A stretch of DNA of 39,038 bases from a virus, in the IMG/VR virus record IMGVR_UViG_3300048839_000781, positions 1 through 39,038 of that record. One strand, written 5' to 3'. The position numbers and the translations under genes are program-made. Below are positions 3,124 through 39,038 of this stretch, in pieces. The notes beneath the pieces were generated by a model. That model searched no databases and had not been told where the DNA came from. It saw only the letters and a list, made by a program, of their open reading frames with translations. Every line of letters starts with the position of its first letter. Positions within the stretch are counted from its first letter, which is position 1.

Positions 3124-3150
3124 AAAAAGACCGCCGGCAACCAGCGGTCT
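3124..3150 (-). terminator. Rho-independent terminator after the capsid gene
   Basis: On the minus strand the arms AGACCGC (3150-3144) and GCGGTCT (3134-3128) pair exactly. The stem extends inward by T-G, G-C and G-C pairs to a loop of three bases (TTG). A run of five T follows (3128-3124). This is a textbook intrinsic terminator about 25 bases after the capsid stop codon, and it would end the head operon. Confidence 0.9.
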
Positions 3151-3175
3151 TCTAGCGAGGTTCCTCCATCAGTTT

Positions 3176-10608: not shown

Positions 10609-12009
10609 TTACACTGTGGAGAGCTTGCGTGCTGTTTCGCCTGTTAGGGTTTCCCATCGCTTTATTATCACATCGACGTATCTTGGGTCGAGTTCCATCA
10701 TGTTGCAGGACCGGCTTGTTTGCTCGGCTGCTATCAGTGTTGATCCGGACCCTCCGAAGGGATCTAGAATGGTGTCTCCTCGCTCGCTGGATGCCCGTAG
10801 CGCCTTGCTTACAAGTTTTACCGGCTTCATGGTCGGGTGCTGGTCATTCTTTTGCGGTTTGTTGACTTCCCAGATGTCCACGGTGTCTCGCTTCCTTTGC
10901 ACTTCGCCTTCGATCTGTCCTTTGATTTTTAGGGTGAAGAGTCCGAGGTTTAGTATTGTGTAGCCGTCTTCGAACTTTGGCTTTACTGATTCGAGATTTG
11001 TCCAGACGTTTGGTTCGTCGCGGTATCCGGCGTGGTACTTGTCTCCTTTGGCGTTCCAGCCGTAGAGGATTGGTTCGTACATATTTTGCCAGTCGGCTCC
11101 GCTTATGTTGAAGGTGTTTTTGACCCAGATTATGTAGCTTTGGTAGTGTCCGCCGGCGTCCACGAATGCTGGGTGTAGGTTGTACAGCTCTGCCGGACTC
11201 ATGCAGACGTAGAATGCTCCGGTCGTTACCTTCATCATTTCGCTTAGGCTGTCTGTTAGGAATTGCCGGAATGCTTGGGCGGTCATTTTGTCGTTGAGGA
11301 TGCCGTCTCGCTTTTGTCCTGGCTGTCCTTGGTAGTCGATGTTGTAGGGTGGGTCGGTGAATACCATTCGGGCGGTCTTGCCGTCCATGAGTGCTTCGTA
11401 GTGTTTGGGGTTTGTTGCGTCTCCGCAGATTAGCCGGTGGCGTCCTAGCTGGTATAGCTCTCCTAGCTTGCTGGTTGCGACGGTTGGCAGGTCCGGTACT
11501 TCGTCTTCGGGTGGTGGTTCGGCGAACTTGTCCAGTAGAGACGATAGCTTGCTTAGGGGGGCTAGGTTTACTTTGAATAGGTCGAGGTCGACGTTTTGCA
11601 GGAGCTTTAGTTTCTCTGCCAAGGCTTGCTGGTCGTACTCTGCGATGTGGTCGTTGTCTGCCAGCGCGTATTCCATGCGTTGGTCTTCGTCCTTTGGGTA
11701 GACTATCTCGACGCTGGTGTACTCAAATCCCATGGCTTCGTACTTTGCTCGCCGGTGGTTTCCTCCTAGGATCTGACCGTTTTCTTCTGCTATCAGTCCT
11801 TTGAATTGTCCGAGCTTCCTTATCATTTTTTCGAGGCGTGCCATGTCCTCGGGGGTGCTGGTCTTCGGGTTATCTTCCCAGTTGAAGAGCATTTTTATCG
11901 GCACGACGCGTTTGTAGTCTCCGTCTATGATGAGATTTTGCTGATAGATTTTTAATCTCTCAGCTTCGTCTGGAAACTCTTTTTTGAAGTTGTATTCTGT
12001 TAGTTTCAT
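10609..12009 (-). CDS. ParB-domain DNA methyltransferase (DPPY, adenine/cytosine-N type)
   Basis: A protein of 466 residues that should methylate DNA from S-adenosylmethionine. Residues 35-160 form a ParB/Srx-like N-terminal domain (GGNHRRAKYEAMG near 82-94). The methylase domain has the catalytic motif TDPPYN (residues 218-223) and, near the C terminus, the SAM-binding motif DPFGGSGST (416-424). DPPY before the FGGSG motif is the beta-class order, which acts on N6-adenine or N4-cytosine. Proteins of this combination occur in many phages and plasmids as orphan methylases. It may protect phage DNA from host restriction. No partner restriction gene is visible. Confidence 0.88.
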   Translation of the reverse strand: MKLTEYNFKKEFPDEAERLKIYQQNLIIDGDYKRVVPIKMLFNWEDNPKTSTPEDMARLEKMIRKLGQFKGLIAEENGQILGGNHRRAKYEAMGFEYTSVEIVYPKDEDQRMEYALADNDHIAEYDQQALAEKLKLLQNVDLDLFKVNLAPLSKLSSLLDKFAEPPPEDEVPDLPTVATSKLGELYQLGRHRLICGDATNPKHYEALMDGKTARMVFTDPPYNIDYQGQPGQKRDGILNDKMTAQAFRQFLTDSLSEMMKVTTGAFYVCMSPAELYNLHPAFVDAGGHYQSYIIWVKNTFNISGADWQNMYEPILYGWNAKGDKYHAGYRDEPNVWTNLESVKPKFEDGYTILNLGLFTLKIKGQIEGEVQRKRDTVDIWEVNKPQKNDQHPTMKPVKLVSKALRASSERGDTILDPFGGSGSTLIAAEQTSRSCNMMELDPRYVDVIIKRWETLTGETARKLSTV

Positions 12010-12125
12010 AAGTTTTACCGCATATTTCCTGTTCTATCCCCTCCCCTCCCCTCTCGACCGCTTACTCCTCTCTCACGCCTGAGAAACCTCAAAACGTGGT
12101 GCGGAGGAGTGGAGTGGGGGAGTGG
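12010..12125 (-). other. Gap with G-rich tract, small inverted repeat and operator-like core
   Basis: This gap of 116 bases precedes the methyltransferase. On the transcribed strand it holds three GGGG runs separated by single A, just before GGGATAGAACAGG. The latter corresponds to the 11-base core of the operator-like element (12030-12040, ten of eleven matches). A five-base inverted repeat (TCTCA/TGAGA) lies at about 12072-12085. I see no T-run after it, so it is not a terminator, and no clear -35/-10 pair. Confidence 0.35.
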
Positions 12126-12263
12126 TCATTCCTTTTTACCGCAGTCGTCGCAGTACCACTTGCCGTTGATGTGTCCTTCCATCTCTCCGCCGCAGTCTCC
12201 GCATTTGCCTTGCAGAAACCAGACTAGTCTCGTGATCCATTTCGGGATCGGGATCTCTACCAT
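12126..12263 (-). CDS. Zinc ribbon microprotein, 45 residues
   Basis: A short gene whose product, starting MVEIPIPKWITRLVWFLQGK, ends in two CxxC pairs: CGDC at residues 21-24 and CDDC at 38-41. This is a compact zinc ribbon. The ATG overlaps the last seven bases of the dehydrogenase gene, so the two are likely co-translated. The N-terminal half is hydrophobic and aromatic and may contact a membrane or partner protein. The function is unknown. The conserved Cys spacing and the overlap argue that it is a real gene. Confidence 0.7.
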   Translation of the reverse strand: MVEIPIPKWITRLVWFLQGKCGDCGGEMEGHINGKWYCDDCGKKE

Positions 12264-13219
12264 GCCTTGTCCTCCGGTAGGAGGGGAATGGTGTTTTTAA
12301 CGTCTTTTCTCATTCGGGCGTTCATTTCGAGGAGGAACTCTACCAGCTCCAGCGGTTGTCCGGCTTCTCGCGCGTATACCGCTATGGCGTTTAGGTCTTT
12401 GGGGAGACACTTGCCACTGAAGCCTGGGTTGTCTTCGTATGCCAGCGTGTGGCTTCTGCCTATCCGTGGGTCGTCCAGCCATGCTTCTCTTAGGGTTAGG
12501 TAGTCGACTCCGGTTGCTCGGCATAGTCTTGCCCAGTCGTTGACGAACATTACTTTGGTTGCGAGGAAGCAGTTTTCCATGTACTTGCAGTATTCGGCGG
12601 TCAGGCTGTCCATCTGTCTTATCCGGCAGTTGGCGTGGAGGACTTTGGACCAGCATTCGGCTGCTTTGCGTACCGCTTCCGGCTTGCCTCCTAGGATGAT
12701 GAAGGGATCGCGCTGGGGTTCCACGAGTGGGTGTCCTAGCGTCTCTCCGACGTATTCCGGTTGCATCACTACTTTGGTGTTGTACTTTTCTGCGAGGCGG
12801 TCGGTGGTTCCTGGTGTTACGGTGCTTCTGATGATGAACAGATCGACGTGTTCGTGCCATCGCTCGATTGCCTGTTCTACCATGCTGGTGTCGCAGGAGC
12901 CGTCTTTATTCATTGGGCTTGGTGTGCTTATGAATGCGACGTCCCATCTGGTGTCTGCTTCGGCGCCGTTGTAGCCTTTGATCAAACTTTTTGAACCGTC
13001 CTTGTCGTAGGGTTCGAATCTTTGGTAGCGGTTTTCCTCCGGCAGTCTGTCGGCATGGGAGAATCGCAGGAGCAGTCCTGAGTTTGGGGTCCAGATGTCT
13101 GCTTGGGTGAAATACTTATGGACGAATTGACCGACCCAGCCATAGCCGATCAGCAAGGTTTTCGGTTCCTTGTTTATTACGTCGCTGTGAGACTCCGGTT
13201 TGCCGAGCTTACTCTGCAT
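12257..13219 (-). CDS. UDP-glucose/GDP-mannose dehydrogenase family protein, short form
   Basis: A protein of 320 residues. The NAD-binding motif GYGWVG is at residues 25-30, STPSPMN at 98-104 and STVTPGTT at 132-139. The central domain has KYMENCFLATKVMFVN (about 212-227) and the catalytic Cys271 in SGKCLPKD. These are the active-site elements of enzymes that oxidise a sugar nucleotide to a uronic acid. Typical members have about 430 residues with a third, nucleotide-sugar-binding domain; here the protein stops soon after the central domain. The enzyme may use an atypical substrate or need a partner. It is the last large gene of the glycan cassette, with a good Shine-Dalgarno (GGGAGGG). Confidence 0.85.
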   Translation of the reverse strand: MQSKLGKPESHSDVINKEPKTLLIGYGWVGQFVHKYFTQADIWTPNSGLLLRFSHADRLPEENRYQRFEPYDKDGSKSLIKGYNGAEADTRWDVAFISTPSPMNKDGSCDTSMVEQAIERWHEHVDLFIIRSTVTPGTTDRLAEKYNTKVVMQPEYVGETLGHPLVEPQRDPFIILGGKPEAVRKAAECWSKVLHANCRIRQMDSLTAEYCKYMENCFLATKVMFVNDWARLCRATGVDYLTLREAWLDDPRIGRSHTLAYEDNPGFSGKCLPKDLNAIAVYAREAGQPLELVEFLLEMNARMRKDVKNTIPLLPEDKAW

Positions 13220-13484
13220 ATTCTGCCCTCCCTAGAGAGACCAGCTCCTCAGCCTTTTGGCTGTCTGTCGTCCACTTGTCGCCTTTTTTTGCGACGTCAC
13301 GGTAGTCGGTCTTCATTTTTACCGTTCGTGTTTGGTATTGACCTTCTTTTTTCTCCGCGTCTCTTTGGTCGTTATCCTTGGACGTGGTTTCTTTTTGCTG
13401 GGCTTGCTTCCATGCTGGCTGGCTTCCTCCTTTAGGGGTTGCTTGCATGATTTTTTCCCTTCGTTGTTGTGATTGGCTTTTCAT
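13209..13484 (-). CDS. Hypothetical hydrophilic protein, 91 residues
   Basis: I do not recognise this protein. It is very rich in Gln, Lys, Asp and Glu (for example QQRREKIMQATPKGGSQPAW), with no hydrophobic core in the first 60 residues. The end, TDSQKAEELVSLGRAEYAE, could form one helix and resembles the tails of small phage proteins with a conserved Ala-Glu terminus. It has a near-perfect Shine-Dalgarno (AAAGGAGGTGA), one of the best in the window, so it may be made in quantity. It overlaps the next gene by 11 bases and the previous one by 4. Confidence 0.7.
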   Translation of the reverse strand: MKSQSQQRREKIMQATPKGGSQPAWKQAQQKETTSKDNDQRDAEKKEGQYQTRTVKMKTDYRDVAKKGDKWTTDSQKAEELVSLGRAEYAE

Positions 13485-14329
13485 AGTGTCTCACCTCCTT
13501 TTGTTTTTATAATGTTTTGTATTAGCTCGAGGTATTGCGGTCCGCTTTGTTTGACGTGGTGCTTCTCGATTACTTCATTGTAGCGCATTTCGACTTCCTT
13601 TGTCCTCTCCTCGGGGTCCATGAATCGCTCGAGTTCCTCGGGACTGGTTGCTACCGGCATTTTTAGCGCCCAGCTTGTCAGGGTCTTGTTTGGCGATTTG
13701 AACTTGTGGCGCCGGTCCTTGGTGAAGTCGGGGAGGAGGACGATGTCGTGTTTGATCAGCTCCTCGTTTAGGGTTTCGTATTTGAAGTCAATGTTTATGT
13801 CGGCGTTCCGGTAAGGTCGCTCGCTTATCACGGCTAGGCTTAGGAGCATGTCTTTTAGTGGGATGAGGGTTTGCTCCAGCACGACTTGGTTGCTTGAGTA
13901 GCCGAACCAAACGACGCTTCTGGCTTTGCCGATGTGTTCTTCCTTTACCGGCGTGTGTTCTTCCGGATCGATGCGGTCGGGGATTATGACGACCGGCTTG
14001 TCTGTCAGTTGCACGAGGAAGTCTCGCAGGGCTTTGGTTGGGACCGTGAAGGCGTCTACCAGCTCGGTTAGTTCGGTTATCGGTCTGCCGTCCATCCAGT
14101 CGGGGTCGCAGATGTCGAATATCTTTACTCCTTTGAATTGCTCCATGTGTTTTTTGTAGTAGGCTTTTTGGTAGATTACCGCGTCGTATCGCACGCCGTC
14201 GTAGAACTCCTCTATCTCTGGGCAGTATTTGCGGACCCAGCGTCCCCTGATCCGGCTTGATCCTACTTGGTTTTCTTTGCGGTTGTCGTATTTTTCCATG
14301 TCGAGCATGGCGATTTTTAGGTTTTTCAT
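13481..14329 (-). CDS. Putative glycosyltransferase-like protein
   Basis: A protein of 282 residues starting MKNLKIAMLDMEKYDNRKEN. The layout suggests a GT-B-like Rossmann protein: an early YDAVIYQKAYYKKHMEQFKG, a middle KPVVIIPDRIDPEEHTPVKE, then KARSVVWFGYSSNQVVLEQT, which resembles the start of the second domain of family 4 transferases. Later DIVLLPDFTKDRRHKFKSPN and LTSWALKMPVATSPEELERF fit the nucleotide-sugar-binding region. Catalytic residues cannot be assigned with certainty. I chose the ATG at 14329, which overlaps the preceding TGA; a longer open frame further upstream is a shadow of the neighbouring gene. Confidence 0.6.
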   Translation of the reverse strand: MKNLKIAMLDMEKYDNRKENQVGSSRIRGRWVRKYCPEIEEFYDGVRYDAVIYQKAYYKKHMEQFKGVKIFDICDPDWMDGRPITELTELVDAFTVPTKALRDFLVQLTDKPVVIIPDRIDPEEHTPVKEEHIGKARSVVWFGYSSNQVVLEQTLIPLKDMLLSLAVISERPYRNADINIDFKYETLNEELIKHDIVLLPDFTKDRRHKFKSPNKTLTSWALKMPVATSPEELERFMDPEERTKEVEMRYNEVIEKHHVKQSGPQYLELIQNIIKTKGGETL

Positions 14330-15276
14330 AGTATTGTGCTTAGGTAGTTTTGCCAGTCTGATGCCCACCTTGTAATGTTGAGCTTCTCGATCGCTGTTTG
14401 CTTTCCGCGCTGTCCTATCTCTCTGGCTTCTTTGACGCGGTTGGTTATCAGGTCTTCTATCAGGTCGGCTGCTGTTTTTGGGTTGTCCGGTACGATGAAG
14501 CCGTTTACTCCGTTTTCGATGTATTCCTCGATGTCGTGGTGTCTGGTCGTTACCACGCAGCATCCGGATAGCATGGCTTCTGTCCGGCTTCGTGGCATTG
14601 GTGATTGCCAGCCGAGGTGGACAAATACGAGGCTTCTGCCGAGGTATTCTTTGTAGTCTTCTACTGTGTGGAATTTGGTTGTTGCCATGATCCAGATTAG
14701 CTCGATGCCTCTTTCCTTTAGGATGTCCATTGTCGCGTGGAGGAGTTCTCGGCGGTAGGCTTTGTTCATTCCTCCGGCACTCATACAGGCGACGGCTCGT
14801 GGTTCTTTGGGGAGGTCTTGCCAGTCGCTTGGTTCCAGTCCGTGGATGATCGGCGTTCCCCATCCCCATTGGGCTGCTGCTTGTTTGGAGTTGGTTACCA
14901 TTGGGATGTCGCCTACCATGTCTTTTATTTTTTCGATCACTTGGTCGTTTTCGTATTGGTCGTGGTAGGGGGTCATGTGGTTTATCACGACGCGCTTCAT
15001 GCCCTCTGTTAGTTTTTTGAACTCTTGGAAGAGGAGTCCTTTGCTTATTCTCGGGTCGATGCATTGCTGGTCGATGTGGAGGATTGCGAGGTCGTAGTCT
15101 TCTGGCTTGAAGTCTATTACCATGTTCATGTTGTCCGGCTGGTTCCGGCTGGTTCCTCCCCATTCTCGGTACATATTCTGCATCAGGTCGTACTGCTTGA
15201 ATAGCTTTGCCAGCTCGTATTGGTGAGCTGTATGCCATGGGACGCCGATTACTTTTAGTTGTTTTGTGTCTGTCAT
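14326..15276 (-). CDS. Glycosyltransferase, GT-B fold (family 4-like)
   Basis: A protein of 316 residues. The C-terminal half holds the family 4 signature: SLVFVHLGWQSPMPRSRTEA, followed by MLSGCCVVTTRHHDIEEYIE and NGVNGFIVPD. The Glu of RTEAMLSGC corresponds to the conserved nucleotide-sugar-contacting Glu. The N-terminal part (DYDLAILHIDQQCIDPRISK) is the acceptor domain, with a relatively short linker. It would transfer a sugar from an activated nucleotide to an acceptor that is not known. The ATG overlaps the TGA of a 36-residue membrane peptide gene, and the end overlaps the next glycosyltransferase gene by four bases. Confidence 0.82.
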   Translation of the reverse strand: MTDTKQLKVIGVPWHTAHQYELAKLFKQYDLMQNMYREWGGTSRNQPDNMNMVIDFKPEDYDLAILHIDQQCIDPRISKGLLFQEFKKLTEGMKRVVINHMTPYHDQYENDQVIEKIKDMVGDIPMVTNSKQAAAQWGWGTPIIHGLEPSDWQDLPKEPRAVACMSAGGMNKAYRRELLHATMDILKERGIELIWIMATTKFHTVEDYKEYLGRSLVFVHLGWQSPMPRSRTEAMLSGCCVVTTRHHDIEEYIENGVNGFIVPDNPKTAADLIEDLITNRVKEAREIGQRGKQTAIEKLNITRWASDWQNYLSTIL

Positions 15277-15383
15277 ATTTTTTTCAGTATTACTAGTGCT
15301 AGGACCACTGACCAGAATACGACTCCTGCCATGATTCCGGCTATTAGCCAGATGATTTGTTCTTGTCGGCTCATTTTCTTCAT
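15273..15383 (-). CDS. Single-span membrane peptide, 36 residues
   Basis: This small product starts MKKMSRQEQ and then has one long hydrophobic stretch (IIWLIAGIMAGVVFWSVVLA, about residues 10-29) followed by ILKKI. The positive start and hydrophobic middle fit a single transmembrane helix. It overlaps the exonuclease end and the next glycosyltransferase start, both by four bases, which supports translation. It may anchor a partner to the membrane. The function is unknown. Confidence 0.65.
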   Translation of the reverse strand: MKKMSRQEQIIWLIAGIMAGVVFWSVVLALVILKKI

Positions 15384-15955
15384 AGGTTTTGCATCATTTT
15401 TTGGATAACGGCTCGGGTTGCTCTGATGTCTGAGAGTGCATCGTGGGCGTCTATTTCGATGCCGTAGTGCTGGCAGATGGTTGAGAGTTTCATGTTGTCG
15501 CAGGGGAGTTGTCCGGCTGCGGTGAGGAAGTTTCCGAAGACTCGGCTGTCCAGCGCACGCCAGTTTTGGTAGCTGGTTATTCCCCATTTGCGGTCTTCGT
15601 CGTTGCCGTGGTCTTTGAATAGCTTGTTTAGGAACTCTAGGTCAAATTGCACGTTGTGTCCGGCTGGGTAGAACTTGTCGGGCATTTTAGTGTACTTTGG
15701 GATGTAGGCTCCCAGAAGGTCTTTTATTTGGGCGAGCATTTCCTCCGGTTGCTGGTATGTTTTCAGTTCCTCGATCGTTATGCCGGTGGTTTGAATTGCC
15801 TGGGGATCTATCACGTCCCAGTTCTTGGGTTGGCATCTCAAGTTGATTTCCTCTTTTACTTCTCCGTCGACTTCGATGATTGCGGCGAATTGGGTTATCT
15901 CGTGTTTCTGGTAGTCGGTTCCGGTGGTTTCGGTGTCGAAGTAGAGGATTTTCAT
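15380..15955 (-). CDS. DEDDh 3'-5' exonuclease (DnaQ-like)
   Basis: A protein of 191 residues. All catalytic residues of the family are visible: Asp7 and Glu9 in YFDTETTG, Asp105 in GHNVQFDLEFL, and His171 and Asp176 in DAHDALSDIRA. Such enzymes degrade DNA or RNA from the 3' end in a metal-dependent way, as proofreading or repair nucleases. No polymerase is encoded here, so it may serve recombination or end-trimming with the Sak4-like ATPase and the VRR-NUC nuclease. It lies among glycosyltransferase genes but is translationally linked to its neighbours by short overlaps. Confidence 0.92.
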   Translation of the reverse strand: MKILYFDTETTGTDYQKHEITQFAAIIEVDGEVKEEINLRCQPKNWDVIDPQAIQTTGITIEELKTYQQPEEMLAQIKDLLGAYIPKYTKMPDKFYPAGHNVQFDLEFLNKLFKDHGNDEDRKWGITSYQNWRALDSRVFGNFLTAAGQLPCDNMKLSTICQHYGIEIDAHDALSDIRATRAVIQKMMQNL

Positions 15956-16284
15956 TTTGTTTGGTCTTTCTTTTCTGATGTTGATAATTTTTGGAGTTCC
16001 TTTTCTAGGTTGGTTGCCAGTCCTGCGACCAGCTTTAGGATCTCGGTTGCGCTGAATTGGATGCTGAATGGGATCAGGAGGACTTTGTTGTTGTCCTTAC
16101 AGAAGTAGAACATCGGCGCTATTTTGACGAGGTTCCGGCTGTCTATCTCCTTCTCAGTGCGCGTTACTTCTTGTGCTTTGTGAGCCTTGCCTTTGCTGTC
16201 TTTTATCTCGAACTCCGGTCCGACAGCTTGCTCGCTTACTAGCTCTCGTTTTATTCCTGGTAGTATTCCGTTTGGTTTTTTCAT
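15952..16284 (-). CDS. Hypothetical protein, 110 residues
   Basis: I do not recognise this protein. It starts MKKPNGILPGIKRELVSEQA, and has a strand-rich centre (LVKIAPMFYFCKDNNKVLLI), a hydrophobic helix-like part (EILKLVAGLATNLEKELQKL) and a charged tail ending in STSEKKDQTK. The upstream AAAGGAAACT gives a fair ribosome binding site. It overlaps the exonuclease start by four bases. It is the first gene after the gap containing a promoter-like pair and a structured element, so it may head a transcription unit. Confidence 0.65.
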   Translation of the reverse strand: MKKPNGILPGIKRELVSEQAVGPEFEIKDSKGKAHKAQEVTRTEKEIDSRNLVKIAPMFYFCKDNNKVLLIPFSIQFSATEILKLVAGLATNLEKELQKLSTSEKKDQTK

Positions 16285-16301
16285 AGTTTCCTTTGTTGTT
16301 T

Positions 16302-16380
16302 AGAGCGCCAGCGCCACGGCTTGGCTGTTGGATATGATTCCGACACCAGAGCCATCGCGCTGGGCTGGTTGATTCGCTCT
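16302..16380 (-). ncRNA. Candidate structured RNA ahead of the 110-residue gene
   Basis: In this gap of 158 bases (16285-16442) the arms AGAGCG (16302-16307) and CGCTCT (16375-16380) pair, and the adjacent CCAGCG (16308-16313) pairs with CGCTGG (16358-16363). That gives 12 paired bases that are contiguous on one side. Inside, GGCT/AGCC (16318-16321, 16350-16353) and TGTTGG/CCGACA (16326-16331, 16340-16345) extend the stem, the last with one wobble on the plus strand and one mismatch on the minus strand. The orientation is therefore uncertain; the minus strand is favoured by the promoter upstream. It is not a tRNA by my check. Confidence 0.4.
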
Positions 16381-16432
16381 GTCAATCGCCTTCGCAGGTT
16401 GTGACTGATAAGTTCGAATCGCGGTTTGGTTG

Positions 16433-16483
16433 TGTCTTATTCCTATCCATATAATTTATAGCATTGCGTCTTGGAAATTGCAA
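16433..16483 (-). promoter_or_regulatory. Promoter-like pair with operator-like element
   Basis: TTGCAA (16483-16478) and TATAAA (16460-16455) are spaced by 17 bp at the end of the glycosyltransferase fusion gene. The element tgtcttattcctatcca (16433-16449, plus strand) follows at about the transcription start and matches the copies at 26399 and 27468 in 14 of 17 positions. The -35 box is imperfect. Confidence 0.45.
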
Positions 16484-18017
16484 TATCCTTGTACCGACGC
16501 CACTTGGCGCTGGACTTTCGTTTTGTTATCGCTTGGGCTTTTGGGACGAACTGGAGGATCATTTTGTTTTGCTCCCATCGGGTCCGGACTTCTTGGGTCA
16601 TTCCGCCGTACTGGGTTATCTGTTCGTTGAATGCTCCTACTCTTAGGAGGTCTTTTCGGTTTACGAATGAGAAGTTTTCGACGAATGATTTTTGGCTTTG
16701 GTCCTTCATTCCCCAGAGCCAGATGCCTTCCTTCCGGCGTTCGTAGAATGCGTCTAGGGCTTCCTTCTCCGGTAGCATTCGCTCGTCGACGAACCAGAGC
16801 CATTGTCCTTCGGCTTCCATGACGCCTTTGTTTCGGGCGCGTGCCAGACCGTAGGTTTTTTGTCCTTTGAGGTCTCGGGTTGCTGTTTGGAAGAACTTTA
16901 TGGTGTGGCTGGTTTCGCCTCTGATCTGCTTTATCACTTCCTCGTTTAGTTCCGGTTGCTCTCCGTCGTCCACGACGATGATTTCGAGGGGTCCGTAGGT
17001 CTGGCTCATCACATGGCTTAGGGTTTCGATCAGCTTGTCCGGCGTTGAGACGGTGGGGACGATTGCTGTTACCAGTTCTTTGCCTGTTAGGAGCTGGTGG
17101 TATAGCTGGCTGTACTTTCGCGCGTAGATTTCGTAGTTGCGGTATCTCAGACTGTGAACGGACTCTTGGCGTATCTCGTCTCTTAGTTGCTTGTTTTGAG
17201 TAAGTTCTGTTAGCTGTTTTTTGAGGTCTTCCAGATCGTCTGGGTCGCCTCGTCTCACTTGCATGTTGCGTCCGTTGAAGGTGTCGGGGACGTGTCCGAT
17301 CCTTCGGGTTAGGACTGGGGTTCCGCAGCTCATTGCTTCGAGGATGGGCAGGGTTCCGGACTCGTATCCGTCCACGCTGTTGCAGACGTGGATCATGCTC
17401 TGGTGGTAGAGGTCTCTCAAGTCCTCGTCGCTTATCCGGTGGAAGAAGTCGACGGCTTCGGTTGCCATTACTTGCTCGTAGTAGGTTCTGTCGCTTATGT
17501 CTCCGACGAGTGCCATCTTTATTCCGAGATCCTTGCATGCTTGGGCTACCGGCAGGACGCCTTTTTTGGCTTCTATTCGGTTTGAGACCATGATCACGCC
17601 GTAGTGGAATGATGCCGGTTCTGCTGGCTGGTATTCCCAAAATTCTGTATCCACTGGGTGTTCAATTTTTACGCTTTGAGTATTTATTGTCCTCAGCTGT
17701 TCGGTGTTTAGGACGACGTTGATTTTGTAGTTTGTCCACGGTGTTCGGGTCAGGTCGTAGGGGTTGTGGTGGGTTAGGAGGCATGGTTTTTTTATCTCGT
17801 ACATTGAGTAGAGGACTTCGGCTGTCTTCCAGTATTGAAAGTCTACGACGTCACACCATGCGAGGGCTTCCTCGAAGGCTTGTAGTTGCTCGGGGCTTGG
17901 TCTCTTTGGGTGTACTGCCACGAGTTTGAAGGCGTGCCATGGGGTGTGCTTTATTTTATATTCGCACATCCGGTGAATTGCCGTTCCTTCCTTTTCTGAG
18001 ACGAGGAGGACTCTCAT
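16443..18017 (-). CDS. Two-domain glycosyltransferase: GT-B (family 4) plus GT-A (family 2)
   Basis: A protein of 524 residues starting MRVLLVSEKEGTAIHRMCEY. Residues 1 to about 330 are a family 4-like GT-B unit: VIMVSNRIEAKKGVLPVAQA, then ESGTLPILEAMSCGTPVLTR with the conserved Glu. From about 335 a family 2 GT-A unit follows: VTAIVPTVSTPDKLIETLSH, EIIVVDDGEQPEL and LARARNKGVMEAEGQWLWFV. The usual DxD motif seems to be replaced by VDER, so metal binding may differ. Two transferase units in one chain suggest that two sugars are added in sequence. The ATG at 18017 has a good Shine-Dalgarno (AGGGAGG). A longer upstream open frame is not needed. Confidence 0.85.
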   Translation of the reverse strand: MRVLLVSEKEGTAIHRMCEYKIKHTPWHAFKLVAVHPKRPSPEQLQAFEEALAWCDVVDFQYWKTAEVLYSMYEIKKPCLLTHHNPYDLTRTPWTNYKINVVLNTEQLRTINTQSVKIEHPVDTEFWEYQPAEPASFHYGVIMVSNRIEAKKGVLPVAQACKDLGIKMALVGDISDRTYYEQVMATEAVDFFHRISDEDLRDLYHQSMIHVCNSVDGYESGTLPILEAMSCGTPVLTRRIGHVPDTFNGRNMQVRRGDPDDLEDLKKQLTELTQNKQLRDEIRQESVHSLRYRNYEIYARKYSQLYHQLLTGKELVTAIVPTVSTPDKLIETLSHVMSQTYGPLEIIVVDDGEQPELNEEVIKQIRGETSHTIKFFQTATRDLKGQKTYGLARARNKGVMEAEGQWLWFVDERMLPEKEALDAFYERRKEGIWLWGMKDQSQKSFVENFSFVNRKDLLRVGAFNEQITQYGGMTQEVRTRWEQNKMILQFVPKAQAITKRKSSAKWRRYKDIAISKTQCYKLYG

Positions 18018-18250
18018 TTTTTGCCTCCCTTCTTGGTCTCCGCAGATTTGCGGGGACCATCTTTTTTGTAGTTGACGTCTTCTATCTTTTCGCGTTCTGC
18101 TTCGAAGACTTCCTCGAGGTCTTTTACCACTTCCAGCATTCCCTCTTTGATTTTTTTCGGGTCGATGTCTTCTGTCCATTCGATGGCGGTTGCCATGCCT
18201 TCGAGCTTTCCTATTGCTCCGGCTAGTTGGGACCAGTCTTTGAGTATCAT
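18014..18250 (-). CDS. Hypothetical helical protein, 78 residues
   Basis: I do not recognise this protein. It starts MILKDWSQLAGAIGKLEGMA and is mostly helical with many acidic and basic residues (EGMLEVVKDLEEVFEAEREK). The tail is Lys-rich (KSAETKKGGKK) and might bind nucleic acid. The ATG overlaps the nuclease stop (ATGA) and carries AAGGAGA upstream. Its end overlaps the glycosyltransferase start by four bases. A coiled-coil partner protein is possible. Confidence 0.65.
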   Translation of the reverse strand: MILKDWSQLAGAIGKLEGMATAIEWTEDIDPKKIKEGMLEVVKDLEEVFEAEREKIEDVNYKKDGPRKSAETKKGGKK

Positions 18251-18720
18251 TGGCGGTCTCCTTCCTTGAGTGCCACGGTGGGTGCTTTGCTTGATTTGGT
18301 CGTTGCGGTCGGCTTTTTTCGGGGTTGCCTTAGCGTGTAGTTGGTAAATCGCGAGAAGGTTCCGGCGTCCGCCTTTTCTTTGGCTTCTGTTATTTGGCTG
18401 AATACCTCTTGTACTTGGGAGAGATCGTCGACGACCATTGCTATTCCGCCGGCTTTTGCGAAGTCGTGCAGGAATTGCAGTTGGCTCTCCGTTGGCTTTC
18501 CTCCTGGGCGCTTTACTTCTATTGCCAGTGGTTTGCCGTTCCAGACTCCTATGATGTCGCTTATTCCGGCTACTGATGCGGCGCGGAAGACGTGTCTGGT
18601 TCCTTTGTATTCTGATACACGCATGCCGGCGTTTTGTCGCCAGACGAATGTGCTTGGCTGGTAGCCGAGCCATTGGATGATTGCGTCTTGGATGTCCTTT
18701 TCTAGTTGTTTGGTTGCCAT
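18247..18720 (-). CDS. VRR-NUC domain nuclease
   Basis: A protein of 157 residues. The catalytic pattern of VRR-NUC (a PD-(D/E)xK fold) is visible in order: Gln29 with Asn30 in VWRQNAG, Asp55 in GISDIIGVWNG, and Glu68 with Lys70 in LAIEVKRPGG. Stand-alone VRR-NUC proteins are common in phages and cut branched or structured DNA; some resolve recombination intermediates. Residues after 125 (FSRFTNYTLRQPRKKPTATT) are basic and probably flexible. The gene overlaps the preceding glycosyltransferase by 19 bases, so it is embedded in the glycan cassette by position but should act in DNA processing. Confidence 0.88.
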   Translation of the reverse strand: MATKQLEKDIQDAIIQWLGYQPSTFVWRQNAGMRVSEYKGTRHVFRAASVAGISDIIGVWNGKPLAIEVKRPGGKPTESQLQFLHDFAKAGGIAMVVDDLSQVQEVFSQITEAKEKADAGTFSRFTNYTLRQPRKKPTATTKSSKAPTVALKEGDRQ

Positions 18721-19601
18721 AGTTGGTGTCCGATATGCTCGGGTTTCAGTCGTTTGGTAATTGCTTCGTGCATCACTTCCGGCTGTTCGCTTATCGGGAT
18801 GATGCGGTTTGCCTTTTCTCGTACTGCCATGATTTGTCCGAGGACTTGCGCTCTCACGCTTTCCTCGTCTTCCGGTTTTGTCTGCTTGTATACTTCGGTG
18901 AATCCCCTGAATCGGTTCCAGCCTTTGTTTGCTTTGACTCGCTCGCTTACTACCATGTCTAGTGTCTTGAATGTCCAGAGGTAGTTGTACAGGTCTGCTC
19001 CGGTTCCGCCGATCAATCCTTCAAGTGCGCTTCCTTCTATTATCGCCTCTCCTTGGGGGATGTCTTCGTAGTAGGCGTCTTCATGCCAGATTGGGTGGCA
19101 CAGGTCGGTTTTGAAGCTGGGGTCGAAGCCGTATTTGATCTTTGGGTATTTTGCCTTGTGGATGATGTAGTACATTTGGCTTTTGCTGAACCAGTTGGTC
19201 ACGGCTCCGCTTTGGAGCTTCTGGCATTTGATGACTGCTTTGCCTTTGCCTTGCTCGCGTTCCACTTCTTGTCTGAGGCGTTTTGCCTGGTCTTGGTGGA
19301 AGATGTGATCGCTCTCTCCGGCTGCGACCCAGTCGGCGTCGGTGTTTTCTAGTCCGTAGTTCCATGCTTTGCAGAACTCTGCCCATGACCAGTTTTCCTG
19401 ATCCCATTCTCGGGTGATGATCCGGATCTTGCCTTGCTCGTACTGGGGGAGTGCTTGTATCGCTTCGACGGTTCCGTCGGTTGAGTCGCCGTCCACTACC
19501 ACGACTTCGTCTGCCCAGTAGAGGTGGCTGAGGATTGCTTCGATGAAGGTGTCTCCTCGCTTGACCGCGTTTGTTACTGGTAGGAATGCTGCTATTTTCA
19601 T
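18702..19601 (-). CDS. Glycosyltransferase family 2 (GT-A fold)
   Basis: A protein of 299 residues. The N-terminal MKIAAFLPVTN and ADEVVVVDGDSTDGTVEAIQ (residues 30-49) are the nucleotide-binding start of family 2 transferases. The metal-binding position shows as WVAAGESDHIF, with ESD in place of the usual DxD. HEDAYYEDIP and the following region fit the acceptor side, and the C-terminal third is helical. It should transfer a sugar to a polysaccharide, lipid, protein or nucleic acid acceptor; the sequence does not say which. The ATG overlaps the TGA of a methyltransferase gene. An alternative longer frame upstream is a shadow. Confidence 0.85.
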   Translation of the reverse strand: MKIAAFLPVTNAVKRGDTFIEAILSHLYWADEVVVVDGDSTDGTVEAIQALPQYEQGKIRIITREWDQENWSWAEFCKAWNYGLENTDADWVAAGESDHIFHQDQAKRLRQEVEREQGKGKAVIKCQKLQSGAVTNWFSKSQMYYIIHKAKYPKIKYGFDPSFKTDLCHPIWHEDAYYEDIPQGEAIIEGSALEGLIGGTGADLYNYLWTFKTLDMVVSERVKANKGWNRFRGFTEVYKQTKPEDEESVRAQVLGQIMAVREKANRIIPISEQPEVMHEAITKRLKPEHIGHQLWQPNN

Positions 19602-20164
19602 AGTAGGGTTGCTGGCTGTTCTTTTATAATGGTGTACTTTAGCCATTTTTTGTTTATGTGGCTTCGCTCCACTTTGATTTCCTTTACTTGTTGTCCGTCG
19701 GTTAGTTGCTCTTGGGTTACTGCCCACTTGCCGCCGTACTCGTCGTTTATCTGTTCTCCGGCTTGGCGGTATTCGGGGTCTTCCTCGACGATGAAGAGGG
19801 CGTGGTTTGCTCGCTGGTACATCTGGTCGATGACTCCTTGGAGCTTGTCTGGTGGGATCACGAGCAGGGTGATGTTTGCCATTACCACGTCGAACTTCCG
19901 GCGGTTTAGTCCCTGTGGTCCCCATGGTTGGGTTAGGTCGTATCCGTTTTTGAAGTCGATGCTGGTGTACTTCTGCCGGTATGGGGTTGCTAGGAACTTT
20001 GCGAATGATCCGTCGTATCCTCCGACGTCCAGTGTTGTTTTGAGTCCTGCTGCGCTTAGGATCTGAGTCAGGGCTTTTGCTGCTTCGGCTTTTTGGGCGC
20101 CGTATGCTGGATGTCGTTGTTTCTCCAGCCAGAAGTGAGGTTTGTCCTTCCAGTAGTTGCTCAT
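19598..20164 (-). CDS. Class I SAM-dependent methyltransferase
   Basis: A protein of 188 residues starting MSNYWKDKPHFWLEKQRHPA. The SAM-binding motif I is TTLDVGGYDGSFAKFL (near residue 43), an acidic residue after strand two is in YTSIDFKNGYDL, and KFDVVMANITLLVIP gives motif IV. This is the class I fold. Substrate cannot be deduced; in sugar cassettes such enzymes often methylate sugar hydroxyls. The gene overlaps the aminotransferase stop and the next transferase start by four bases each. A Shine-Dalgarno (GGAGGG) lies nine bases upstream. Confidence 0.85.
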   Translation of the reverse strand: MSNYWKDKPHFWLEKQRHPAYGAQKAEAAKALTQILSAAGLKTTLDVGGYDGSFAKFLATPYRQKYTSIDFKNGYDLTQPWGPQGLNRRKFDVVMANITLLVIPPDKLQGVIDQMYQRANHALFIVEEDPEYRQAGEQINDEYGGKWAVTQEQLTDGQQVKEIKVERSHINKKWLKYTIIKEQPATLL

Positions 20165-21171
20165 GCTCTGATCCCTCCCTCCACTAGGCGTTTTGTCGCC
20201 TCGATGACCGTTTGGACTTCCTCCTCGGTCATGGTGTCGTAGAGGGGAAGGCTTACCGTGTGTTCGTAGGCGTGTTCGATTGCTTCTCTGCCGTGGACGG
20301 TCATGTCTCTGAATGGGGTCATTTGGTGCAGTGGTTTGAAGTGGACTCCGCACTCGATTCCTTCTGCCATCATGTTTTGGATGAAGGCGTCTCGGTTGTC
20401 GAGGTAGATTCTGTAGAGGTAGTCTCCGTCGTTGTTGATCCCGAAGGCGTCATTGTAGGCGGTTACAATCGCTTGTCTTTTTGCGTTGGTTTCGTCCAGT
20501 CTTCTTAGTTGCTCGAGTACGATGGCTGCTTGGAGGTTGGTGTAGTGTCTTTTGTATCCGATCATTTCGACGTCGTAGTCCCATGAGTTCCGGTAGCCGG
20601 TTCCTTGGTTCCTGCCGTAGGTGGCGGCTGACCTTGCCCATTTTGCGAAGTTCTCGTCGTCGGTTGCTATTGCTCCGCCGTCTGCTGATCCTATGGTTTT
20701 AGTCGGGTAGAAGCTGAAGCAGAGTTTCATGGCGTCCGGCGCTCCGGCGTCCTTCATTTTGCGGTACTGGTTGCGTCGCAGTTCGTGGGCTGAGTCGAAG
20801 ACGTTGCTTCCTGTCATTTGGTAGTAGTGTCCGACCCAGTCTGTCCGGTCGTCCAGTTCTACCTGGCATCCGGCTTCCAGCGCGGCGTTTAGTGCCAGTG
20901 GTACTGTCATGCTGGGGATCTTTAGGTGGATGGTGTCTTTTTGGAGCATCTCGTATTTGAGACTGAGGAAGAGGGCGCTTGTGCAGGAGTCGACGAGGAC
21001 GACATGCCTTGCTCCCACGTATTCTGCCAGCTCCTTCTCGGTTTCGAATACCAGATTGCCCAGACCGATGTAGCCGGTCTCTATCAGTGGCTTGATTGCC
21101 TCGAGTGCGTTTCCTAGGTTTATTTTTTTGAAGGGGATTTTGTTTTTCTGTGAGGATTCTGCTAGTTTCAT
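20161..21171 (-). CDS. DegT/DnrJ/EryC1 family PLP-dependent sugar aminotransferase
   Basis: A protein of 336 residues that converts a keto sugar nucleotide into an amino sugar. The PLP-binding Lys158 lies in FYPTKTIGSADGGA, preceded by the cofactor-contacting DSAHE (126-130). The N terminus (YIGLGNLVFETEKELAEYVG) and SCTSALFLSL (62-71) match the family. Length is near the usual 370, with a slightly short middle. It is the first gene after a candidate promoter at 21178-21206 and overlaps the next methyltransferase by four bases. Together with the dehydrogenase it implies that the phage alters sugar nucleotides rather than only transferring them. Confidence 0.92.
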   Translation of the reverse strand: MKLAESSQKNKIPFKKINLGNALEAIKPLIETGYIGLGNLVFETEKELAEYVGARHVVLVDSCTSALFLSLKYEMLQKDTIHLKIPSMTVPLALNAALEAGCQVELDDRTDWVGHYYQMTGSNVFDSAHELRRNQYRKMKDAGAPDAMKLCFSFYPTKTIGSADGGAIATDDENFAKWARSAATYGRNQGTGYRNSWDYDVEMIGYKRHYTNLQAAIVLEQLRRLDETNAKRQAIVTAYNDAFGINNDGDYLYRIYLDNRDAFIQNMMAEGIECGVHFKPLHQMTPFRDMTVHGREAIEHAYEHTVSLPLYDTMTEEEVQTVIEATKRLVEGGIRA

Positions 21172-21177
21172 GGATTT

Positions 21178-21206
21178 AGTGTAGCAAATGCGGATCAGTT
21201 TGTCAC
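21178..21206 (-). promoter_or_regulatory. Candidate leaderless promoter for the aminotransferase unit
   Basis: GTGACA (21206-21201) and TACACT (21183-21178) are 17 bp apart, and six bases separate the latter from the ATG at 21171. GATAGGATAG sits just upstream and resembles part of the operator-like element. Both boxes are imperfect. Confidence 0.35.
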
Positions 21207-21210
21207 TATC

Positions 21211-21813
21211 CTATCTCTGCTTCCTTGCTTCCACGAAGTAGCCGATCGGGTAGGTGTAGGGTCCTTTGGCTTGTCTGATCTTGCTGTACCTGAGTCCTTC
21301 CGTGGCGAAGAATGCTTGCAGGTGGGGGAGTCCGACGGTGGCTTTCCTCTCCTCGATCCGGACGATTTCAAGTCCGGCTTTGGGGAGTACCTTCTCGTAC
21401 CATTCGTCGGTGTAGCGCAGGTAGTCCCAGACGTCGTGGTGGGGGTTTACGAATGGGGTGCTTATGATGACCGTTCCTCCTTGCTTGGTTGCGTAGCTGA
21501 GGTTCTGGATGGCTTGGACTGGGTTCCAGCAGTGTTCGAGGACTTCCAAACAGAAGACGATGTCGTATTGCTTCGGGACCCACTTGGGTTTGTTGAATCC
21601 GGCTAGGAAGACGGTTTGCTCCCAGTCTTCGTTTAGGTCGGCGATGTAGTCTGGGTTCCATTGGTCGTCGACGTCCATGGTGTGGTACTCTGCTGGTTCT
21701 CCGGTGGTGAGCGCTCGTGCCAGTTTGTCTTGACATCCGACGTCCAGTACCGTTTTGCCGGCGATGTTGATCTGTCTGACGAGGGAGTTTAGCTGTTCAC
21801 GGCTTTTGCTCAT
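21211..21813 (-). CDS. Class I SAM-dependent methyltransferase
   Basis: A protein of 200 residues. Motif I is KTVLDVGCQDKLARAL (residues 19-34), followed by an acidic loop in YHTMDVDDQWNPDYIADLNE and by YDIVFCLEVLEHCWNP, typical of Methyltransf_11-type enzymes. GGTVIISTPFVNPHHD is the usual late motif. It most likely methylates a sugar or other small acceptor made in the cassette. It overlaps the preceding glycosyltransferase by four bases. No metal-binding or target recognition domain is visible, so DNA methylation is unlikely. Confidence 0.87.
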   Translation of the reverse strand: MSKSREQLNSLVRQINIAGKTVLDVGCQDKLARALTTGEPAEYHTMDVDDQWNPDYIADLNEDWEQTVFLAGFNKPKWVPKQYDIVFCLEVLEHCWNPVQAIQNLSYATKQGGTVIISTPFVNPHHDVWDYLRYTDEWYEKVLPKAGLEIVRIEERKATVGLPHLQAFFATEGLRYSKIRQAKGPYTYPIGYFVEARKQR

Positions 21814-22772
21814 AGTCCGAGTGTTCTGTCGATGGTTGCTTTGTAATGCTCCGCCATTATCGGGAGGCTGTGTTTGAGGGCGTTGGCTCTGGCTCTTTGG
21901 CTCAGTTCCTCTCTCTCGGTTAGGAGTTGCTCGATCTGCTCGGTGAAGGTTCGGTCGTATTCGATCATGAATCCGGCGTCTTCGACCATCTCGGTTACTC
22001 CTCCGTAGGCGTTGTACATGACCGGCAGTCCGCATGCGAGGGCTTCCAGTACGACGTTTGGTGCTGGGTCTGCGAAGCTTGGGTAGAAGAGGAAGTCGGC
22101 TGATCGCATCATTGCTGCTTTGGCGGTGTCGTCGTTTATGATTCCGAGTCGCTGGTGGGTCTCTCCGTTGAAGAATCCCATGTTGTAGGTCATCCATTCG
22201 GTTGGGTATCTGCCCAGCAGGAGGAGGTTGGCTTCTTTGTTGCGGCTGAAGTATTCTCGGTACATTGCCAGCACTTCCTCATATCGCTTGTTGTTGTCTT
22301 TGCGGTATGCGACGTGGAGGATCTTTGGGTTTCCTCTGAATGCTACTTTGGGTCCGTCCGGTGCGAAGATGTCGGTGTCTACTCCGTTTCGGATCGTGCT
22401 GTGAGGACAGCTGACGCCGTTCCTTTTTAGCAGGACTCCGACGGTGTCTCTGATGAAGTCGCTTTGGTAGATGATGTGGTCGGCTTTGGTGCTGTATTCG
22501 ACGAGGCGCCTGGTTCCGCGTCCGCTATTTCGTGAGTCCTCCGGCACGCCGTCCATTCTCAGGAGGAACTTGGCGCCGTTCTTTTTGCTTCGCTCGATGG
22601 TCTCTCCGTTTACGGTTGATGGGCTGAATGCGAAGAGGAGTTCGTGTGGTTCATGTTCTGGGACCAGTTCTACTTCGGGGTAGGCGTCTTGGATGGCTTT
22701 GACGAAGTTGCGGTAGAAGGTGTATCCGCCGCCGATGTTCTGGTCGCTTATGTAGGGGATGTGTATTTTCAT
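21810..22772 (-). CDS. Glycosyltransferase family 4 (GT-B fold)
   Basis: A protein of 320 residues beginning MKIHIPYISDQNIGGGYTFY. The glycine-rich acceptor-side loop, the mid segment CPHSTIRNGVDTDIFAPDGP and the C-terminal FYPSFADPAPNVVLEALACG with the conserved Glu are classic for family 4. LPVMYNAYGGVTEMVEDAGF follows as usual. It should use a nucleotide-sugar donor. It is the first large gene of the glycan cassette, immediately after two small membrane or unknown genes that share its transcript. The start overlaps the stop of the membrane protein gene (ATGA). Confidence 0.9.
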   Translation of the reverse strand: MKIHIPYISDQNIGGGYTFYRNFVKAIQDAYPEVELVPEHEPHELLFAFSPSTVNGETIERSKKNGAKFLLRMDGVPEDSRNSGRGTRRLVEYSTKADHIIYQSDFIRDTVGVLLKRNGVSCPHSTIRNGVDTDIFAPDGPKVAFRGNPKILHVAYRKDNNKRYEEVLAMYREYFSRNKEANLLLLGRYPTEWMTYNMGFFNGETHQRLGIINDDTAKAAMMRSADFLFYPSFADPAPNVVLEALACGLPVMYNAYGGVTEMVEDAGFMIEYDRTFTEQIEQLLTEREELSQRARANALKHSLPIMAEHYKATIDRTLGL

Positions 22773-26394: not shown

Positions 26395-26424
26395 ATTATG
26401 TCCTATCCCTATCCCTTTTGTCAA
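26395..26424 (-). promoter_or_regulatory. Sigma70-like promoter with operator-like spacer
   Basis: TTGACA (26424-26419, perfect), 18-bp spacer, CATAAT (26400-26395, five of six). The spacer holds GGGATAGGGATAGGACA (26415-26399), which matches the element at 27484-27468 in 15 of 17 positions. It should drive the Sak4-like ATPase with a leader of about 32 bases. Confidence 0.8.
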
Positions 26425-26613: not shown

Positions 26614-26779
26614 TGCATGCTCCTAATACTGCTAATTCTCTTTTGCATTTTTTACATCGGTGGATGTGCCAGTACCATGTCTCCTTGCTCTGCATCCCTG
26701 TTGGGTATTCGTCGGTGCAGTCGTCGTCGTGGTTGCAGATGCCGAAGTGTTTTTCGAGCCAGTTTTTTATTTTATTCAT
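26606..26779 (-). CDS. Small Cys/His-rich protein, 57 residues
   Basis: A short gene whose product starts MNKIKNWLEKHFGICNHDDD. It has Cys at 15, 21, 42 and 45 and His residues at 17, 38 and 40, a pattern that could bind one zinc ion (CxNHDDDC and RCKKC). It overlaps the genes on both sides by eight bases. The ATG at 26779 lacks a strong ribosome site but could be coupled. A nucleic acid-binding finger is likely; the function is unknown. Confidence 0.65.
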   Translation of the reverse strand: MNKIKNWLEKHFGICNHDDDCTDEYPTGMQSKETWYWHIHRCKKCKRELAVLGACNE

Positions 26780-27272
26780 GGTATTCTCCTCTTTTGTTTA
26801 GCCGGTCTGCGATTTCGGTCAGTTCTCCTTTGAGCCGGTTCATGTCGGCTAGGAGTCCCCAGCTTACTTCGTCCTGGTTGTTTATGATCCGGTTGTCTTG
26901 TCGGTCGACCGCGTGTCGGATGTCTTCTGTTAGTTCCATGATTTCCTCGTAGGCGGTTTGGTATTTGACTTGGAGGTCGACGCCTTTTTGGTATCGGCTT
27001 ATGGCTGCTTCGATGTATCCGGCGATCAGGTTGTTGCCTCCGATATGCCAGTCGGTGTTGTTTTCCGGTGTGATGTCGCTTTTGTAGTCGTAGATGCTTC
27101 CGACTCCTTCTGGGGTTCTTAGTATCCATTCTGCTTTGACTTTGCCATCTCCGCTTGGTCCGTCCGGCGTTCCGAATAGCTCGCAGAGGTCTGCGTATTC
27201 GATTCTTACCTTGCGGTTGAATCCTGCTTTGAGGAATTCTCTGGTTGTTCTGGTTATGCTTTTGATTTTCAT
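26772..27272 (-). CDS. Hypothetical protein, 166 residues
   Basis: I do not recognise this protein as a named family. The first part (MKIKSITRTTREFLKAGFNR, then RIEYADLCELFGTPDGPSGD) and the following KAEWILRTPEGVGSIYDYKS form a mixed fold found in some phage early proteins. From about residue 105 it is a long charged helix (ITRYQKGVDL-like region through MNRLKGELTEIADRLNKRGE), likely a coiled coil. It is the first gene after the structured RNA and promoter at 27300-27492, so it is an early product. AAAGGAAAAT precedes the ATG. Confidence 0.65.
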   Translation of the reverse strand: MKIKSITRTTREFLKAGFNRKVRIEYADLCELFGTPDGPSGDGKVKAEWILRTPEGVGSIYDYKSDITPENNTDWHIGGNNLIAGYIEAAISRYQKGVDLQVKYQTAYEEIMELTEDIRHAVDRQDNRIINNQDEVSWGLLADMNRLKGELTEIADRLNKRGEYHE

Positions 27273-27299
27273 ATTTTCCTTTCGTTTTTTTGTTATTTT

Positions 27300-27424
27300 C
27301 CTTAGTAGACCGGCTTGCCCTATCGATTTTTAGTTTCATCCCCGTTATGCCTTCGCGACTTAACCGTTGGCTGCTTTAAGGACGTTTTATCTATTCTCTC
27401 TGTTGCTAAGCCGGTCTGTTAAGG
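27300..27424 (-). ncRNA. Candidate structured leader RNA with 15-bp closing stem
   Basis: On the transcribed strand CCTTA (27424-27420) pairs with TAAGG (27304-27300), then comes a symmetric 2x2 internal loop (AC/AC). AGACCGGCTT (27417-27408) then pairs exactly with AAGCCGGTCT (27316-27307). The enclosed 91 bases contain at least one further stem (GUUA-A-GUC closed by GGC-A-UAAC, with a GCGAA loop) nested in CGTCC/GGATG. It begins about 30 bases after the predicted start of the strong promoter and ends 28 bases before the first early gene. It could be an antiterminator, riboswitch-like leader or separate small RNA. It matches no family I know by eye. Confidence 0.65.
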
Positions 27425-27463
27425 TTCTGACAGTTCGCTTGTTTGCTCTCTGTCTATGATTGT

Positions 27464-27492
27464 ATTATGTCCTATTCCTGTCCCAAAGTCAA
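27464..27492 (-). promoter_or_regulatory. Main early promoter, sigma70-like, with operator-like spacer
   Basis: TTGACT (27492-27487, five of six), 17-bp spacer, CATAAT (27469-27464, five of six). The spacer and -10 edge carry GGGACAGGAATAGGACA (27484-27468), a near copy of the element in the promoter at 26395. It lies just after a terminator and before the structured RNA, where the main early promoter should be. Confidence 0.8.
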
Positions 27493-27508
27493 GGGGCAAG
27501 ACGATACC

Positions 27509-27535
27509 AAAATAGCCTCGTGCGTGAGGCTTTTT
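27509..27535. terminator. Bidirectional terminator between lysis and early genes
   Basis: The inverted repeat AGCCTC (27514-27519) and GAGGCT (27526-27531) has a six-base loop. On the plus strand TTTTT follows (27531-27535), and on the minus strand ATTTT follows (27513-27509). It ends transcription from the tail and lysis operon about 30 bases after the holin gene. Confidence 0.85.
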
Positions 27536-27561
27536 ACTCGGTCAGGTTGTTGCTTGGAGGG

Positions 27562-38608: not shown

Positions 38609-39038
38609 TTATCTTACACCATTTTTGGCTTTCGCTTCTAGAACCTTGTTGTCGTAGTCGCTTTTTTTGCCTTGCAGTCGCATGATGGTGAGGTTGATTT
38701 CGACGTCTTCGAGGGGTTCCTCCATCATTTGGGCTTTGCTGAGGTGGAAGTGTTTGCGGTAGACGTACTCCTCCAGTCTGGTCATTGCCCAGAGCTGGTC
38801 GTCTTCGTCAAGCGTGGGGTCGGGCGTTCCGTCGAATACTGCCCATTCGAGGGCAGTTAGCCTTTTGGGACTAACGTTTTTTTTCCCTGTAGCACGTTAA
38901 GTGCTTCGTTGATGATTTCCATTGGGAGGTCTTGGAGGTTCTCTTTGGTGATGTCTGTTAGTCCGGTTCCGTCGTAGCCTTTACCTTCCACGAACTTCTC
39001 TTTTAGGAGGGAGATCATGTTTTTGGATGGCTTCTCTG
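38609..39038 (-). CDS. Tail assembly chaperone, long (GT) form via -1 frameshift, 3' part
   Basis: The chaperone frame enters here from the window start (in phase across the join). A -1 shift at the slippery run opens a second frame of 89 sense codons ending at the TAA at 38611-38609, five bases before the tape measure start. The extension contains LEWAVFDGTPDPTLDEDDQL, LEEYVYRKHFHLSKAQMMEE and DVEINLTIMRLQGKKSDYDN. The complete long product would be 199 residues. This G/GT arrangement is conserved in long-tailed phages and in lambda is made by a -1 shift at GGGAAAG. The extension has no suitable start of its own. Confidence 0.85.
38838..38887 (-). other. Programmed -1 frameshift signal with two hairpins
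   Basis: CAG GGA AAA AAA ACG lies in the 0 frame (38889-38875), so G GGA AAA and A AAA AAA are both in slippery phase. Counting from the first heptamer, five bases lead to the hairpin GTTAG/CTAAC (38875-38856). A second hairpin ACTGCCC/GGGCAGT of seven base pairs (38857-38838) follows at once. Confidence 0.85.
38857..39038 (-). CDS. Tail assembly chaperone, short (G) form, 3' part
   Basis: This is the rest of the 0-frame product that begins at 197. It continues LLKEKFVEGKGYDGTGLTDI, passes EIINEALNVLQG and, without frameshift, ends GKKTLVPKG at the TAA at 38859-38857. Total length is 116 residues. The join is supported by the 28-base end repeat and by exact phase. One codon differs between the two copies: GCA (Ala) near base 20 against CCA (Pro) near 39030. 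Confidence 0.8.
   Translation of the reverse strand, partial: EKPSKNMISLLKEKFVEGKGYDGTGLTDITKENLQDLPMEIINEALNVLQGKKTLVPKG
39011..39038. repeat. End repeat: copy of bases 1-28 with one mismatch
   Basis: Bases 39011-39038 equal bases 1-28 except at base 20 (c) against 39030 (g). The genes read through the join in phase, so this marks a circular assembly or a terminally redundant molecule. It is not an integration site by itself. Confidence 0.85.

Follow-up and report, generated by a model that had tools for sequence, protein, structure and literature searches.

A candidate structured 5′ leader with no family match at the head of the early genes of a 39-kb phage

RNase III processing stems occur in the early mRNA of phage T7 and in rRNA, and the put RNA of phage HK022 suppresses downstream termination through the β′ zinc-binding domain. 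To our knowledge very few RNA-only antiterminators are known. EAR (the epsC RNA, RF01735) and conAn, from long Gram-positive operons, also head long one-directional units. The general layout of HK022 putL is that of two stem-loops directly after an early promoter, and put can act against Rho-dependent termination and pausing as well (PMC9378689); terminators inside the operon are regarded as a good pointer to processive antitermination (PMC8955417). Stem-loops in the 5′ region that stabilise mRNA are established for ompA, papA and aprE (Emory 1992 and Bouvet and Belasco 1992, as cited in PMC3997798). Here we describe a predicted leader of about 160 nt that resembles each of these systems in layout and that is best filed, from its modelled structure, as an orphan structured 5′ UTR.

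The window, that is, the whole stretch of DNA analysed, is a phage contig of 39,038 nt (IMGVR_UViG_3300048839_000781) whose likely genes all lie on the minus strand. The first and last 28 bases (window 1-28 and 39011-39038) are identical but for one mismatch, and a gene cut by the contig ends is restored when these are joined, which makes a complete, circularly permuted genome probable. A gap of 289 nt, with the lysis genes on one side and the first gene of the replication and recombination side (gp1) on the other, houses the inverted repeat studied here. The reading frame of gp1 can be taken as real because homologues are found in about 30 viral contigs; the protein gave no Pfam, PHROG or NCBIfam match. 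Past gp1 the order is two small genes, an AAA ATPase, sugar-modifying enzymes, a methyltransferase, and then terminase and head genes. The features needed below are the following:

28718-27858, minus strand: amidase (lysis gene), upstream of promoter P1
27861-27562, minus strand: small membrane-type protein on the lysis side, the last gene before P1
27514..27531, minus strand: weak intrinsic terminator at the end of the lysis genes, just upstream of P1, AGCCTCACGCACGAGGCT followed by ATTTTGG
27464..27492, minus strand: promoter P1, sigma-70-type, TTGACT-17-CATAAT, from a consensus scan
27429..27454, minus strand: predicted 5′-terminal hairpin, GACAG...CUGUC with an inner GC pair, from folding against shuffles
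27408..27424, minus strand: 5′ arm of the closing stem, CCTTAACAGACCGGCTT, from an inverted-repeat search (15/17 complementary)
27317..27407, minus strand: 91-nt interior, weakly structured
27300..27316, minus strand: 3′ arm of the closing stem, AAGCCGGTCTACTAAGG, from the same type of search, pairing predicted
27273..27299, minus strand: A-rich unpaired linker with the Shine-Dalgarno sequence AAAGGA (27282-27277), read from the sequence
26772..27272, minus strand: gp1, 166 aa, function unassigned, first gene downstream of the leader, supported by homologues
26395..26424, minus strand: sister promoter P2, TTGACA-18-CATAAT, ahead of the AAA-ATPase gene
26356-25073, minus strand: AAA ATPase related to Sak4-type recombination proteins, downstream of the two small genes
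3126..3152, minus strand: strong intrinsic terminator directly after the major capsid gene, hairpin of -18.9 kcal/mol and then a T run

The initial annotation had placed a promoter about 30 bases upstream of the element, and the consensus match at P1, with a predicted transcription start at 27457, some 33 nt before the stem-closed element, agrees with this. P1 and P2 have their -35/-10 region in common, including the stretch ATAGGACATAAT, which strengthens the P1 call. If the element is transcribed at all, P1 would be its source. The short 5′ UTR that follows P2 is unstructured and carries no leader of this kind. On the minus strand P1 (27492-27464) and P2 (26424-26395) also hold a common purine-rich spacer and extended -10, GGGA(T/C)AGG(G/A)ATAGGACATAAT, which may be an operator or a phage-specific promoter motif.

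As the genes run on the minus strand, the RNA of the element reads from 27424 to 27300. Its inverted repeat consists of two 17-nt arms (27424-27408 and 27316-27300), complementary at 15 positions and separated by 91 nt, and contains, just as originally described, exact 10-bp arms (AGACCGGCTT/AAGCCGGTCT) and a CCTTA/TAAGG extension that lies across a 2x2 mismatch. Predicted pairing probability is over 0.9 along both arms, the 2x2 loop excepted, and an inner helix is possible within the interior (27384-27378 with 27343-27337). A second hairpin, absent from the initial annotation, is predicted at 27454-27429, beginning within a few bases of the predicted 5′ end, so that a terminal or near-terminal helix would be followed by an accessible ribosome-binding site (RBS). 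The predicted accessibility of the gp1 RBS is equal with and without the element, so that simple RBS switching is not indicated. Translation of the element is unlikely, judging from its stop codons in all three minus-strand frames; a 187-aa open reading frame that starts inside it, at 27339, is out of frame with the conserved gp1 and was rejected. This anatomy supports well the description of a structured, untranslated RNA running from an early promoter to the first early gene.

We compared the repeat and its fold with dinucleotide-shuffled sequence. None of 3000 shuffles of the 289-nt gap contained an inverted repeat of at least 15/17, and 0.9% contained exact 10-bp arms. A comparable repeat is present in 8% of shuffles of the whole 39-kb contig, where chance alone should also yield about two pairs of exact 10-bp arms no more than 150 nt apart. 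The claim that such pairing is not expected by chance stands for the gap; over the full contig the repeat is only mildly surprising. When the 125-nt element is folded on the minus strand its energy is -37.2 kcal/mol, where shuffles average -23.4 ± 3.1 (z -4.46, 0/200), a score to be read knowing that the boundaries were picked after the stem had been seen. The 34-nt fold of the 5′ hairpin gave -8.8 against -1.9 ± 1.3 (z -5.16, 0/200). All of the excess over shuffles is confined to the closing stem and this hairpin; the internal stems of the 91-nt interior, to which the annotation had also pointed, do not exceed shuffled sequence (z 0.03). Ranked by GC-adjusted fold energy the leader comes about 51st among 3891 minus-strand windows of 130 nt, and the better-folding stretches at 16.3 kb and 3.1 kb, for example, are intergenic.

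Covariance searches against Rfam gave no match at the gathering threshold over the window, and none at E<=10 within the element when 27240-27540 was searched (the sole match at that level near the leader, outside the element, was one meaningless snoRNA), in line with the view that the RNA belongs to no known family; no riboswitch, ribozyme or other Rfam RNA was matched. Apart from sub-threshold scraps, a single-sequence covariance model of the leader matched nothing but itself, whether in the fetched loci, in the complete records of 16 related phages or in the neighbourhood of 30 gp1 homologues. The leader DNA gave E=5 fragments at most against phages and plasmids. Relatives sought through the capsid, portal and AAA proteins were fragments or distant phages, the closest capsid relative (69% identity) being a 4-kb fragment that lacks the early region, and the terminase protein brought none. 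In most of its relatives gp1 lies close behind or overlaps another gene and does not head a transcript, so the leader does not regularly accompany this gene. The element is thus, by sequence comparison, an orphan in the available data, with no homologous element to align for a covariation analysis. Since the searched collections may omit the records nearest to the window, the missing relatives are weak evidence. Several further candidates were rejected. The exact-arm pattern had six matches in viral contigs, all in apparently protein-coding sequence that bears no relation to the leader, and the four matches of a 16-mer from the interior were each in an unrelated context. No attC-like or MITE-like ends were seen, as judged by eye from the lack of matching boxes and of a target duplication; the SRP-like word AGCAGCC, with 20 copies on the strand, was put down to chance, and the hammerhead ribozyme core is absent from the window. 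In one contig with a gp1 homologue (IMGVR_UViG_3300033153_007262) up to three hammerhead-ribozyme-like sequences (2772-2848, 2829-2907 and 3235-3341) flank that gene close to gene starts, with complete CUGAUGAG...CGAAAC cores; the best Rfam match, to type II, scores 30.3 bits (E 0.0008) and stays under the gathering threshold.

We tentatively favour a reading in which the leader is a structured 5′ UTR of the main early transcript, probably the earliest message of the phage, acting as a passive barrier that protects or processes the message. RNA started at about 27457 would at once form the 5′-terminal hairpin and then the domain closed by the 17-nt-arm stem, and at its end the unpaired A-rich linker would present the gp1 ribosome-binding site. 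The two helices would hide the 5′ end from 5′-end-dependent ribonucleases and would stop upstream RNA from pairing with the start region, and the long stem may double as a cutting site for a double-strand ribonuclease, for example RNase III. From the sequence, the gene order, the promoter match and the non-random stem and hairpin, all observed, we infer transcription and folding in the cell, the protective or processing role and any cleavage. The position of the element on the coding strand between a promoter and an RBS argues for this reading, as do the lack of a plausible translated frame, the predicted RBS accessibility that does not depend on the element, the 24 kb downstream in which no intrinsic terminator was found, and the lack of a family match. 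Because the closing stem and the 5′ hairpin exceed shuffles and the interior does not, a barrier fits better than a ligand pocket. Like the stabilising stem-loops of ompA, papA and aprE, the leader is predicted to carry a 5′-terminal hairpin, further structure and a largely unpaired RBS region; it differs from them in being larger, through its enclosed 91-nt interior, and in that its stabilising effect is a prediction. Like the RNase III stems of T7 early mRNA and rRNA, its closing stem is long and imperfect, has an internal loop and sits in an early leader, but it is shorter than theirs and its cleavage putative. Some points stand against the barrier. P2 has no such leader, so this phage's early messages can in general do without one; a domain of 125 nt exceeds what a simple end-protecting hairpin requires; and with no homologue there is no sign of selection on the pairing.

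The put-like and EAR-like antitermination that had been suggested would have the nascent leader, alone or with a protein, bind RNA polymerase and carry it through the long one-directional genome, in the manner of put, EAR or conAn. The resemblance to HK022 is one of layout: as in putL and putR, an untranslated RNA with two consecutive stem-loops (27454-27429 and 27424-27300) is predicted directly after an early promoter, here at the head of a one-directional genome, and the predicted transcript begins with AUAGAC, its start lying 6 nt beyond the -10 box, as in putL. When leader and putL are aligned locally and co-linearly, the score is borderline, being reached by 28 of 500 shuffles. However, put is 73 nt long against about 160 nt, and the leader lacks its conserved sequence. 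A put covariance model built from eight phages, with HK022 putR held out of training, gave putR 37.8 bits and the leader 0.4 bits (E 1.2 in 311 nt, filters off), so the leader is not put, and EAR was unmatched in the Rfam search; by these sequence tests membership of both families is excluded. conAn needs a small protein too, of which no sign is seen here. There is no boxA or ops match, and a NusG-like factor (PF02357) is absent from the proteins encoded by the phage contig, the control genomes being positive. On the minus strand the only intrinsic terminators found are 27531-27514, upstream of P1, and 3152-3126, the first downstream of it at a distance of about 24 kb. Antitermination would therefore have little to do, which sets the leader apart from put-type systems and from the EAR and conAn units, and separate promoter-like sites, P2 (26424) and another at 23478, sit inside the presumed operon. 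As put can also counter Rho-dependent termination and pausing, the antiterminator class keeps a small share of the probability and is quite unlikely to be the explanation. It is very improbable that the leader represents a new RNA class, unrelated to put but convergent with it, that by itself modifies the host RNA polymerase (by antipausing or by protection from Rho) where a single genome-length unit begins. Such elements being few, even a low chance of another is of interest.

Pure coincidence, with the repeat arising by chance in an unremarkable 5′ UTR, is a serious rival because conservation could not be demonstrated. We consider it doubtful all the same: the frequency of comparable repeats in whole-contig shuffles and the better folds elsewhere are as it would predict, whereas the gap shuffles yielded no such repeat, this one is the sole case in the contig and lies in the main promoter gap, and a second unusual hairpin precedes it. 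A processed small RNA, in which cleavage of the closing stem by a double-strand ribonuclease would release some 91-125 nt to act in trans on host or phage RNA, is somewhat less likely still. A long closing stem around a spacer resembles rRNA processing stalks and phage RNase III sites, and the strong part of the element is indeed the stem and not its interior; yet 15 Watson-Crick pairs broken by a 2x2 loop are short for double cleavage, no target is known and no homologue was found. We judge improbable a cis-regulatory switch responding to a ligand, a protein or temperature, in which the 5′ arm would pair with an internal segment before capture by the 3′ arm. Folding of prefixes does show such an alternative (CUUAAC/GUUAAG and GGCU/AGCC) before the 3′ arm is made, but this intermediate does not stand out from shuffled sequence (z -0.67, 42/200), so that a bistable switch was rejected, and predicted RBS accessibility is unaffected, the leader has no terminator and its interior is not specially structured. 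Least likely, together with the new polymerase-modifying class, is an element of the DNA, with the inverted arms as protein-binding or origin sites. Pairing is seen on both strands (z -2.8 on the plus and -4.5 on the minus strand) and the element adjoins a promoter, but the fold excess is larger on the transcribed strand, the contig holds no further full-length copies of the arms, and no GC-skew switch was found there. Taken as a whole, the initial observation is confirmed, if somewhat overstated, and its specific functional suggestions are unsupported.

If the fold of the proposed protective leader is real in cells, it would give a concrete case of structure at the head of an early mRNA, in a phage lineage whose relatives have hardly been studied; for an orphan element with no evidence of conservation the general lesson is modest. 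Elsewhere on the minus strand, an intergenic hairpin at window 16285-16400 is stronger than the leader (-44.4 kcal/mol, z -4.26) and has no Rfam match. At 12010-12125, between a 45-aa zinc-ribbon-like open reading frame and the ParB/methyltransferase gene, lies an imperfect inverted repeat, C-rich and then G-rich, whose fold is not significant against shuffles (z -1.3). The gene run at 10609-22772, adjoining the ParB-domain DNA methyltransferase, has products similar to glycosyltransferases, an aminotransferase and a UDP-glucose dehydrogenase, an unusual cargo for a 39-kb phage. Codon bias on the minus strand is very strong toward A- and C-ending codons (GAC 654 against GAT 104, TTC 386 against TTT 28) and may be helpful for identifying the host.
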